A stretch of DNA of 64,000 bases from Nocardioides mangrovicus (lineage in GTDB: Bacteria > Actinomycetota > Actinomycetes > Propionibacteriales > Nocardioidaceae), in NCBI RefSeq assembly GCF_003674065.1, contig NZ_RDBE01000001.1:801913-865912 (forward strand), written 5' to 3'. A program made the translations under genes and the position numbers. This document shows positions 6,234 through 60,408 of the stretch, in pieces (positions within the stretch are counted from its first letter, which is position 1; the number at the start of each line of letters is the position of its first letter). The notes below the pieces were generated by a model. That model searched no databases. It was not told where the DNA came from and saw nothing but the letters and a program-made list of their open reading frames with translations.

Positions 6234-8339
6234 GTGAGCCAGTCCCAGGTGGCAGCGGCGACGCCGCAGGCGCGCGAGGAGCACCGCGTGCTGAGCGAGG
6301 AGATCGAGGACGCGCGCTGGCGCTACTACGTGCTCGACGACCCCACCCTCTCCGATGCCGACTTCGACCAGCGCATGCGGCGCCTGGAGGAGCTCGAGGA
6401 GTCCTTCCCCGAGCTGCGCACGCCCGACTCGCCGACCCAGAAGGTGGGAGGCGCGGTCTCCACCGAATTCACCGCGGTGGACCACCTTGAGCCGATGCAG
6501 AGCCTGGACAACGCGTTCTCCTACGAGGAGCTCGAGACCTGGGCGACGCGGCTGGCGCGCGATGGCGTCGAGGCCCCGGCCCTGCTGTGCGAGCTGAAGG
6601 TCGACGGGCTCGCGATCAACCTGCTCTACGAGAACGGTCGCCTCGTGCGCGGCGTCACCCGCGGCGACGGACGCACGGGCGAGGACGTCACGCCCAACGT
6701 CAAGACGATCGACAACGTCCCTCACCGGCTCACCGGCACCGAGGAGTACCCCGTGCCCGCGCTGGTCGAGGTCCGCGGCGAGGTGTTCTTGGGCGTCGAG
6801 GCCTTCGAGCGGCTCAACGTGGCCATGTCGGAGGCGGGCAAGCCGGTCTTCGCCAACCCGCGCAACGCTGCGGCGGGATCGCTGCGGCAGAAGAACCCCA
6901 AGGTGACCGCCACGCGTGCGCTGGCCCTGGTCTGCCACGGGATCGGCGCGCGCGAGGGGTTCGAGCCCGTCGCGCAGTCGGAGTCCTACGCCGCGCTCGC
7001 CGCCTGGGGCCTGCCCATCAGCGACCGGGCCCGGGTCGTGCCCACGCTGAAGGCGGCCGAGGAGTTCATCGAGTACTTCGGCGAGCACCGCCACGACCAG
7101 GCCGTCATCGGCGAGCACGAGATCGACGGCGTGGTCCTCAAGGTCGACGACGTCGCGCTGCAGCGCCGGCTCGGGTCCACCTCGCGCGCGCCGCGCTGGG
7201 CGATCGCGTTCAAGTACCCGCCCGAGGAGGTCAACGCCGAGCTGCTGGCCATCGAGGTCAACACCGGGCGCACCGGCCGGGTGACGCCGTTCGGCCGCAT
7301 GGTGCCGACCAAGGTCGCCGGGTCGACCGTGGAGATGGCCACCCTGCACAACGCCCACGAGGTCGAGCGCAAGGACGTACGTCCCGGCGACACCGTGGTG
7401 CTGCGCAAGGCAGGCGACGTGATCCCCGAGATCGTCGGACCCGTGCTGGCGCTGCGACCCAAGGGCCTGCGCCGGTGGAAGATGCCCACGGTCTGCCCGG
7501 CGTGCGGCACCGCACTGGTGCAGGAGAAGGAGGGCGACAAGGACCTGCGCTGCCCCGACCACGAGCACTGTCCCGCCCAGGTGCGCGAGCGCGTCTTCCA
7601 CGTGGCGGGCCGGGGCGCGTTCGACATCGAGGTGCTGGGCTACGAAGCCGCGGTCGCGCTGCTCGAGGCGGACGTGATCGCCAACGAGGGCGACGTGTTC
7701 TCCCTCGACCGCGAGCAGCTGCTGCGGACGCCGCTGTTCACCCGCGCCCCCAAGAAGGGCGAGGAGGGCCCCCAACTCTCCGCGAACGGGCAACGGCTGC
7801 TCGACAACCTCGCGGCGGCCAAGGACCGGCCGCTGTGGCGGGCCCTGGTCGGGCTCTCGATCCGCCACGTGGGCCCGACCGCCGCCCGGGCGCTGGCGGG
7901 GGAGTTCGGCTCGATGCAGCGCATCCGCGAGGCATCGGAGGAGGAGCTGGCCGCCGCCGAGGGCGTCGGACCGACCATCGCGGCGTCCGTCCGGGCCTGG
8001 TTCGACGGCCCGGAGTCGGCCTGGCACACCCGCATCGTGGACGAGTGGGCCGCCGCCGGTGTCCGCATGGAGGACGAGCGCGACGAGTCGGTGCCCCGCA
8101 CGCTGGAGGGCAAGACGGTCGTCGTCACGGGCTCCCTGGCCGGCTTCAGCCGCGACCAGGCCAAGGAGGCGATCCTGGTCCGCGGCGGCAAGGCCAGCTC
8201 GTCGGTCTCCAAGAAGACCGACTACGTGGTCGTCGGCGACTCGCCCGGCTCCAAGGCCGACAAGGCCGAGCAGCTCGGCGTCCCCGTGCTCGACGAGGAC
8301 GGGTTCCGCCGGCTGCTGGAGACCGGCGAGGCGGGATAG
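6234..8339 (+). CDS. ligA: NAD+-dependent DNA ligase LigA
   Basis: Essential replicative ligase that seals Okazaki nicks using NAD+. The GTG start at 6234 gives 701 aa, the usual length, with TTGGAT as a -10-like box 6 nt upstream. Domain order is complete: Ia ([16 protein letters not shown], residues 31-46), adenylation domain with nucleophile K122 in CELKVDG, OB fold, four-Cys-type zinc finger (CPACGT...[10 protein letters not shown]), helix-hairpin-helix region, and a C-terminal BRCT domain ([17 protein letters not shown] onward). The frame is open further upstream, but that extension covers the promoter and the divergent hydrolase start. The TAG stop lies inside a palindromic repeat (8333-8399). 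Confidence 0.97.
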
Positions 8340-8399
8340 TCCGAGACGAGATGGTCGTCAGGACGGCGTTGTCACAGCCATTTCGTCTCTGACTATCCC
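8333..8399. repeat. GGRTAGTC palindrome, family A copy 1
   Basis: Arms 8333-8354 and 8378-8399 pair over 22 bp with two mismatches (left GGGATAGTCCGAGACGAGAT, right complement GGGATAGTCAGAGACGAAAT), loop 23 nt. The left arm supplies the ligA TAG stop. The right arm encodes the last residues of the convergent AGE gene. Related elements are at 43333, 46678, 51568 and 60085. Confidence 0.85.
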
Positions 8400-59063: not shown

Positions 59064-59479
59064 GCGGTCTTGGCGTCGGGGTCGAAACCGCAGGCTCGGT
59101 AGAACGCGTGCGTGGCCGGGGTCCGCGAGCCCGTCATCAGCATCGCCTTGTAGCAGCCGGCTTCCCACGCCCGGCGCAAGGTCGCCGCCATCATGCGCTT
59201 GCCCAGGCCGGTGCCGCGTCGGGTCTGCTCGACGACCACGTTCTCGATCACCGCGTACGGCGCTGCCGAGCGCGAGAGGTTCGGGATCAGGTTGAGGTAG
59301 GTCGTGGCCACCAGCTCGCCGTCCTCGTCGAGCACCAGCAGGTGAAGGTGCTCGGCGGCGACGATGGACTCGAAGATCAGCCGGTCCGACCCGTCCGTGA
59401 GGACGGTGTCGTACGGGTGCAGCTGACGGTAGAGCCGGATCACGCCGTCGAAGTCGTCGAGCGTCGCCTCGCGGATCAC
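59042..59479 (-). CDS. GNAT acetyltransferase
   Basis: 145-aa N-acetyltransferase. MIREATLDDFDGVIRLYRQL start, beta-4 LVATTYLNLIPNLSRSAAPYAVIENVVV, the acetyl-CoA loop QTRRGTGLGKRMM (Q/R-x-x-G-x-G), then AWEAGCYKAMLMTGSRTPATHAFYRACGF. Substrate unknown. Its start overlaps the upstream gene stop by 4 bp, so the two are co-transcribed. Confidence 0.9.
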   Translation of the reverse strand: MIREATLDDFDGVIRLYRQLHPYDTVLTDGSDRLIFESIVAAEHLHLLVLDEDGELVATTYLNLIPNLSRSAAPYAVIENVVVEQTRRGTGLGKRMMAATLRRAWEAGCYKAMLMTGSRTPATHAFYRACGFDPDAKTAYLARPS

Positions 59480-60408
59480 GAGGGCAGGCTAGCGACGCTC
59501 AGTAGGTCACCAGCCGTCCGCGTCAATCGCTCCCGCAGTGGTGCCGCCCGCTCGGTGAAGGCCCGCTGGGCCGCGACGTAGGCCTGCTTGCCCTCGGGCG
59601 TCTCGATCGGCACCGCCTCGAAGCCGTGCTCGCTCAGGTCGTAGGGCGAGGCGCGCATGTCGAGCTCGCGGATGTCGTGCGCCAGCTCGAAGCAGTCGGC
59701 CACCAGCTCGCTCGGCACCAGCGGCGACAGGCGGAACGCGTGCTTGTACAGATCCATGCCCGCGTGCAGGCAGCCCGGCTGCTCGAAGTCGGGACGGTCG
59801 TCGCGGCCGGGGGAGAGCGTGTTGAGCGGGCGGGCCGAGTCGGTGAAGAACCGGAAGGCGTCGAAGTGCGAGCAGGCGATGCGGTGCGACTCGACCACGG
59901 CGTCGGTGCCGGCCGGCCCCAGCCGGAGCGGCACCGGGTGCCGGGTCCGGTCGGCGCGGTGGACCATCGCCCACTCGTGCAGCCCGAAGCAGCCGTAGGA
60001 CGCCGGGCGCGTGGCGGTGGCCTCCAGAAGTCGCAGCGTCGACTTCAGGAGCGGTTGGAGCGATTCCAGGTGCGCCGCCGTGACGGATAGTCCAGAACGA
60101 GTAGCACTGGTGCCGGGCTCGCAGTGGTGCGTCTTGGTCTGGACTACCGCGTACCCGCGGGCGTCGGCGTACTCGGGGGCGTCGAGGAGGGTGACGCCGT
60201 AGCCGGGGTGCCAGCGGCGCAGGGCGGCGGGGGAGTGGGAGTAGTAGCCGAAGAGGAAGTCGTGCACCGGGTGCTTCTCGCCGCGGCGCCGGCGGGCCAG
60301 GTGCGGCTGGACCCAGCGGTCGACCCGCTCCTCGTGCGCGGCCGCTCGAGCCGACCAGCACGACCGGTCGAGCACCTCGTGTGCTCCGGCGGTCGTCATG
60401 GCGACCAC
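59476..60408 (-). CDS. 3-methyladenine DNA glycosylase-like protein with in-frame repeat insertion
   Basis: 310-aa protein of a family annotated in actinobacteria as 3-methyladenine DNA glycosylase; biochemical proof is not known to me. Conserved blocks: HLARRRRGEKHPVHDFLFGYYSHSPAALRRWHPGYG, YGCFGLHEWAMVHR, RLGPAGTDAVVESHRIACSHFDAFRFFT, QPGCLHAGMDLYKHAFRLSP, and ELAHDIRELDMRASPYDL. Between GYA and AAHLESLQ, about 22 residues (VVQTKTHHCEPGTSATRSGL and following) are the translation of palindromic repeat copy 5 (60085-60148), a region that is short and variable in relatives. The insertion keeps the frame. ATG 60399 (MTTAG) is an alternative start. Confidence 0.82.
   Translation of the reverse strand: MVAMTTAGAHEVLDRSCWSARAAAHEERVDRWVQPHLARRRRGEKHPVHDFLFGYYSHSPAALRRWHPGYGVTLLDAPEYADARGYAVVQTKTHHCEPGTSATRSGLSVTAAHLESLQPLLKSTLRLLEATATRPASYGCFGLHEWAMVHRADRTRHPVPLRLGPAGTDAVVESHRIACSHFDAFRFFTDSARPLNTLSPGRDDRPDFEQPGCLHAGMDLYKHAFRLSPLVPSELVADCFELAHDIRELDMRASPYDLSEHGFEAVPIETPEGKQAYVAAQRAFTERAAPLRERLTRTAGDLLSVASLPS
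60085..60148. repeat. GGRTAGTC palindrome, family A copy 5 (inside a gene)
   Basis: Left GGATAGTCCAGAACGAGTAG (from 60085), right complement GGTAGTCCAGACCAAGACGC (from 60148 on the minus strand). The arms are less perfect than in other copies. It lies wholly inside the glycosylase-like gene, read in a frame that avoids its TAG. Confidence 0.75.

Follow-up and report, generated by a model that had tools for sequence, protein, structure and literature searches.

The 64,000-nucleotide stretch analysed here (hereafter the window) corresponds to C1:801913-865912 of the 4.11-Mb, 23-contig genome of Nocardioides mangrovicus, and carries five palindromes that begin with GRTAGTC and end with its complement, GACTAYC; elsewhere in the same genome, copies of the same family stand in pairs around genes for a nuclease-like protein. 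Genomes, contigs and loci are designated below by our own numbers, preceded by G, C and L, respectively. The positions of the palindromes in the window, none of which is assigned a strand, are:

8334-8398, no strand: palindrome copy 1, subfamily A; provides the TAG stop of ligA (5982-8339)
43336-43400, no strand: copy 2, subfamily A; between convergent permease (+) and methyltransferase (-) genes
46680-46744, no strand: copy 3, subfamily B; between aminotransferase and protein kinase genes, both +
51567-51632, no strand: copy 4, subfamily C; provides the TAG stop of a leuA-like gene (49962-51572)
60085-60149, no strand: copy 5, subfamily C; within an uncharacterised minus-strand open reading frame (ORF), 59476-60408

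The palindromes and their family

The five palindromes, singled out by a first-pass annotation of the window, are real: all fold better than dinucleotide shuffles, with z scores of -6.6, -16.1, -10.8, -11.2 and -4.5 for copies 1 to 5, and among 200 shuffles of each only a single one, of copy 5, folded as well as the native sequence. Copy 2 is a perfect inverted repeat, with 35-nt arms (35/35 paired) spanning 43333-43403. The annotation held the inner arms to be self-complementary, which they are, and to differ completely between copies, which they do not: copies 1 and 2 share subfamily A (motif GTC[AC]GAGACGA.ATGG), copies 4 and 5 share subfamily C (GTCCAGA..), and copy 3 belongs to a third, B (GTCCGTGACGAACGGACC). 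Similarly, of three copies thought to lie between convergent genes, two (copies 1 and 2) do so according to the simple purpose-made script used for all gene calls in our position statistics, which places copies 3 and 4 between tandem genes.

Searched for GRTAGTC-N35-60-GACTAYC, the host genome gave 23 exact matches, each on both strands, that is, more than the window's five; the reversed-pattern control gave none. There are 48 half-sites, 11 of which lie outside the exact copies and head palindromes with one altered end; in ten of these palindromes 18-22 of the 24 arm positions are paired, in the remaining one only 14. Four host copies (L153, L155, L156 and L160) have the same altered end, GGACTAGGC, which suggests a sub-lineage with one variant end. 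The GRTAGTC family is confined to Nocardioides and its close kin: in a scan of 58 genomes, the 24 of the genus had 0-30 copies each and other genera had 0-5 matches where the control had 0-4, and among the matches listed in a contig scan (at least 119 stretches) the records are named Nocardioides or Marmoricola, with the exception of a few named Pimelobacter, Nocardioidaceae, Propionibacteriales, or only Actinomycetes or Actinomycetota.

Over 156 distinct copies the unit measures 61-65 bp (63 bp in 116 of them), and its GRTAGTC is invariant because the search pattern fixes those letters. C is found at position 8 in 294 and at position 13 in 309 of 312 arms, and G at position 14 in 292. Positions 9-11 vary freely, yet are paired in 96-97% of cases within a copy, compared with 33-51% between copies. 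Pairing within a copy is 63-67% at positions 15-17 and 74-96% at positions 18-23; from these frequencies we derive a layout of an outer stem of ~14 bp, a weakly paired 3-nt step, an inner stem of ~6 bp and a free loop of ~15 nt. The arms vary by species and by subfamily, with self-complementarity retained.

Nuclease-like genes between paired repeats

At five fetched loci, two elements lie ~1.2-1.3 kb apart with a single ORF of 362-366 aa between them, the products of which form one homologous family; at a sixth two-element locus, L068, the reading frame is less clear. In the host genome, subfamilies A and C each bracket a protein of 343-365 aa with AbiEi-like and Vsr/DUF559-like nuclease parts:

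C19:317017-318105: strong nuclease gene, between two subfamily A copies
C1:71164-72177: strong nuclease gene, between two subfamily C copies

A protein profile, the seeds of which had originally been found between GRTAGTC pairs, gave 92 matches in the 24 genus genomes. The flanks of 49 of these loci (29 returned, and 20 picked from the list before the flanks were seen; all matches above 90 bits are included, the weaker ones being the hand-picked part) were examined for sequence shared between the left and right sides of the gene at E<=1e-6, and L198 and L209 were dropped because their contigs end too soon. Matching repeats were present on both sides at 37 of the remaining 47 loci, with 14/16 positives at profile scores of at least 300 bits, 10/14 at 200-300, 2/3 at 100-200 and 11/14 below. 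A nuclease match was also found in 64 (host included) of 246 genomes drawn from the phylum, and 17 of the 29 loci returned from other genera had matching flank repeats. Among control genes, all of which came from Nocardioides-type loci or the window and none from other genera, only 1 of 170 random genes (any within 600 bp of an element being excluded) and 0 of 32 window genes (with no such exclusion) were positive. Thus, there is a tendency in this large nuclease family for the gene to be enclosed by two copies of a single kind of repeat. Several of the flank repeats are palindromes of roughly 50-70 bp, quite different in sequence between loci; some weak paralogues have tandem-like arrays in place of a palindrome, and for others no palindrome was found. 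Weak paralogues at L215, L216, L289, L292, L293, L297 and L299 are apparently flanked on both sides by tandem arrays of ~30-nt repeats.

Repeats and genes also correspond in kind. In G017, three subfamilies accompany three nuclease loci, each of which is bracketed by its own subfamily, and two of 27 copies fit none. Over eight genomes, 78 of 105 dispersed copies had their closest counterpart in an arm at the nuclease of the same genome (with four ties), compared with a mean of 12.6 and a maximum of 57 in 300 permutations of the labels. By hand tally, 10 of the 12 genus genomes with at least eight copies have a GRTAGTC-bracketed nuclease (G014 being counted from one side only, at a contig end), and none of the 12 with fewer (p 7e-5). 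In the three cases tested, nuclease repeats unrelated to GRTAGTC were likewise dispersed in their genome: that of the G271 nuclease has 33 half-sites (none in the three genomes compared with it), that of the G131 nuclease has 15 (1-3 in the five compared), and the third is the CAAARYCGYGCACTTGC-ended family of the host genome described at the end. Since each kind of repeat tends to accompany its own gene, the repeats resemble minute parasites of the genome that are linked to a nuclease-like enzyme.

As to the enzyme itself, the profile MTES_1575, described as a Vsr-type restriction endonuclease (PMC3710099), matches the family below the cut-off, and a sequence search of the PDB gave no match. 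The L129 member, as modelled by AlphaFold (mean pLDDT 83.6, pTM 0.84), produced moderate Foldseek matches to the homing endonuclease I-Bth0305I (probability 0.77-0.80), to Vsr (0.57), to a VRR_NUC domain and to Rv2827c; with the weak profile matches, these suggest that part of the protein may have a fold similar to that of I-Bth0305I, Vsr and DUF559/AbiEi proteins. As a difference from those proteins, neither an intron or intein nor a homing site was observed, and the gene is bracketed by dispersed palindromes. A homologue could be aligned at 77 of 79 loci (two of which, L214 and L290, are the same place); among these 77, E219 is conserved in 75, D253 in 77, E264 in 75, D266 in 72 and D280 in 74. 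These residues and H270 we take to be the active-site residues of a Vsr/DUF559-type nuclease, the acidic residues of this candidate site being conserved in 72-77 of the 77.

Ten of 59 nuclease loci lie between pstB and a pit transporter gene, and two more beside pit. The palindromes at the pstB-pit locus differ between genomes, slightly in some pairs (G003, G009) and almost wholly in others; the nuclease there is a resident gene with changing repeats. Carriage by plasmids or phages was rejected, as no plasmid match was found for the one member searched and no PHROGs family for the three members searched.

Position at gene ends, copying and turnover

Among 112 copies with sufficient flank, 50 lie between convergent genes, 51 between tandem and seven between divergent genes, three are inside called genes and one is unclassified; the 1062 adjacent gene pairs of the same loci comprise 193 convergent, 686 tandem and 183 divergent ones, and the elements are enriched between convergent genes (50/112 vs 193/1062, p 2e-9). 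The median distance to a gene 3' end is 12 bp (n=151), with 108 of 151 within 30 bp, and at 36 of the 151 neighbouring gene 3' ends the element's own TAG is used as the stop. This placement, together with the stability of the hairpins, is what would be seen if the elements were bidirectional transcription terminators or mRNA 3'-end hairpins under selection, their shared ends being due to a factor that terminates transcription or binds RNA and the connection with the nuclease being secondary, and the occupation of one junction by different arms in different species, or by an unrelated hairpin (L031, L130 and L063; see below), also agrees with it. However, no T tract follows the hairpin at copies 2-4, and a terminator scan of 42000-53000 matched only an unrelated place, on which ground an intrinsic terminator with a T tract was rejected at these copies; moreover, terminators need no shared ends, genome specificity or bracketing of one gene family, and several orthologous junctions are empty. 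We therefore consider this explanation of the family unlikely. The genome-wide terminator module proposed in the first-pass annotation may hold as a side effect, which leaves the shared ends, the genome-specific arms and the bracketing of nuclease genes unexplained; hairpins at gene ends may in addition terminate transcription in both directions or stabilise 3' ends, and selection for such a role may contribute to their retention.

Some copies are closely alike. In G012, 14 of the 45 pairs among 10 copies (seven copies involved) are 89-97% identical, with loops at 75-95% and flanks at 18-43%, and two copies in L044 are identical over 63 bp in flanks of 28-30% identity. Because these copies are alike, loops included, in dissimilar flanks, the element itself has been copied, and for G012 the unrelated flanks exclude a segmental duplication. 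In the L053 and L121 pairs, 15-16 bp of one of the flanks are common to both copies; the C36/C149 pair of G017, the flanks of which match too, was set aside as duplicated contig ends. No direct repeat of at least 5 bp was found at the element ends in 172 copies; 4-bp direct repeats were observed three times with 1.6 expected, and shifting the ends outward by 1-7 bp gave at most 3/172 with a direct repeat, these shifts having no control. In sum, dispersed copies match the repeats at their own genome's nuclease, and elements have been copied entire, with their loops, to sites whose flanks are unrelated, with no target duplication.

The last point bears on whether the elements are ordinary miniature inverted-repeat transposable elements (MITEs) moved by a DDE or other transposase, with the nuclease gene a passenger between two copies. 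The 63-bp units have inverted ends, two copies around a gene resemble a composite transposon, and our genome-wide transposase search covered PF01797 alone, all of which would allow such an origin; we nevertheless find it highly improbable, since a passenger would not be expected to be of the same gene family at 54 of 76 loci with repeats mostly unrelated across genera, and DDE-type MITEs were rejected on the missing target duplications.

Comparison of orthologous junctions showed the element to be absent from some relatives and present with different arms in others (12 rows occupied, 10 empty and one half, with reciprocal rows counted twice and a bias to occupied sites because the loci were fetched for carrying an element). 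At the L031/L130 junction the flanks are 88-89% and the element 49% identical, and different arms were also found at L029/L136/L062 and at the junction of window copy 3 and L070. L063 has at 7123, in the junction orthologous to that of L031 and L130, a different hairpin (GAGAGGTCACTTTC..GAAAGTGACCTCTC) with no other copy in the loci examined. At the 3' end of ligA, which was rejected as a test of orthologous sites, no element was present in the 15 relatives read out of 23 (seven minus-strand rows and one running off its contig making up the rest), and the downstream genes looked different. At L081/L134 (flanks 89-91%, element 87% identical) the two arms carry changes that match each other. Such a matched change, the arms that stay alike while loops drift and the AbiEi-like part of the protein are all compatible with the repeats being binding sites, as operators or decoys, for the AbiEi-like DNA-binding part of a regulator or chromosome organiser, each site following its specificity singly. 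We rate this as quite unlikely, given that the copies are at gene 3' ends and rarely between divergent genes (7/112), that whole elements have been copied with their loops, and that nuclease-type residues are kept in 72-77 of 77 homologues.

Relation to REP systems and a proposed mode of spread

As described in two papers, repetitive extragenic palindromes (REPs) or REPINs and their REP-associated tyrosine transposases (RAYTs), together REPtrons, comprise extragenic palindromes at gene ends, with TAG stops, and single-copy partner genes flanked by their own repeats, with several families per genome having repeat-specific partners (PMC3733652, PMC3116915). The GRTAGTC elements are similarly mostly intergenic and near gene 3' ends (3/112 inside genes), often supply a TAG stop and have a single-copy partner gene flanked by its own repeats, again with several families per genome and repeat-specific partners. 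They differ in the partner, a Vsr/DUF559-like nuclease in place of the HUH Y1 tyrosine transposase of RAYT, and in form, since GRTAGTC is paired with GACTAYC in the stem of a 61-65 bp unit, whereas REPs have an unpaired GTAG or CGTC tag and a hairpin of 20-40 bp. The first-pass annotation had proposed a REP-like non-autonomous element mobilised in trans, which fits well the location at gene 3' ends, the copying into unrelated flanks, the lack of target duplication and the bracketed partner gene. It had also suggested a RAYT/TnpA_REP-type transposase as the partner; PF01797 is found in 0 of 24 genus genomes at E<=0.001, with 5 of 14 control genomes positive, so a RAYT/Y1 partner was rejected, and the Vsr/DUF559-like nuclease family stands in its place. 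With RAYT absent from 24/24 genomes and a paired GRTAGTC end instead of an unpaired GTAG tag, we read the system as a non-homologous counterpart of REP/RAYT.

Two further groups described in PMC3733652 come close. TIRtrons, which are RAYT-like genes with long terminal inverted repeats, likewise have a gene between inverted repeats, some of them self-complementary and multicopy, but their enzymes are HUH tyrosine transposases. CGTC-tagged REPs are likewise mainly intergenic palindromes with no known dedicated transposase or other mobiliser; they differ in having 20-40 bp, an unpaired CGTC tag and no known partner gene. No description of a nuclease-palindrome system of the present kind was found in the literature searched, which left out most subscription journals.

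We think it likely that the palindromes are dispersed non-autonomous elements with a Vsr/DUF559-like nuclease as partner, the gene of which is bracketed by two copies, and that they work in a REP/RAYT-like manner with an unrelated enzyme; we infer that the nuclease spreads the repeats. The enzyme would recognise the arms, as an extruded hairpin or as a duplex, and would cut or nick at the palindrome; repair or re-joining would then copy the palindrome to new sites and keep arms alike within a genome. Were the specificity of the enzyme to drift, the arms would change genome-wide while positions persist. On a larger scale, we lean towards a class of selfish repeat systems that spans the phylum Actinomycetota, with a vertically kept AbiEi-Vsr-like nuclease, its own bracketing palindrome, nuclease-driven copying that dispenses with a transposase, and co-evolution of enzyme and palindrome.

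Several observations weigh against this interpretation. No cutting, binding or movement was observed. Ten of the 47 genus loci and 12 of the 29 from other genera had no flank repeat at 1e-6; the own-nuclease test performed poorly in G003 (6/14) and G016 (4/9); G004 (8 copies) and G008 (11 copies) have no evident GRTAGTC-bracketed nuclease; and no partner was found for the second subfamily of G016 or, in the host genome, for subfamily B (6 copies by reading). Within-genome pairs with arms more than 85% alike have loops averaging only 41-63% identity (random 38%), so that most copies are old, with arms held by selection or conversion and not by recent copying alone. For the enzyme, the AbiEi profile matched weakly in four of six members and was lacking in two, of eight members scanned for DUF559 the distant paralogue L090 alone exceeded the profile's cut-off, H270 is kept in only 54 of 77 homologues, and Foldseek against the PDB gave nothing at E<=1e-3, with mitochondrial ribosome chains in the top rows by E.

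If the interpretation is correct, a REP-like system would have evolved independently a second time, and several orthogonal enzyme-palindrome pairs would coexist in one genome. So far a single enzyme superfamily has been linked to REP-like repeats; the same genomic signature around a non-homologous nuclease would imply at least two origins of this way of life. The link would also point to a role for a large family of actinobacterial genes that has lacked an explanation, and several enzyme-palindrome pairs per genome make recognition and co-evolution directly testable.

The window holds copies of further palindrome families of the host genome, of which the CAAARYCGYGCACTTGC-ended one has 45 half-sites at <=2 mismatches, against 4 in the reversed control:

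847-927, no strand: CAAARYCGYGCACTTGC-ended palindrome; the family brackets the nuclease paralogue at C19:218462-219352
14719-14797, no strand: second window copy of the CAAARYCGYGCACTTGC-ended family, between convergent genes
40566-40605, no strand: CCCGGTTTCACC..GGTGAAACCGGG palindrome; the family brackets the paralogue at C19:905459-906178

A perfect inverted repeat of 24 nt (GGGTGCGCCAACCGCACACGTGCG; 14552-14640, 41 nt between arms) adjoins the CAAARYCGYGCACTTGC-family palindrome in the same convergent junction. At another convergent junction (48392-48493) there is a 51-nt inverted repeat, 82% complementary, which may represent a further repeat family, because GAACCGTCAC is also present in L156 of the same genome.

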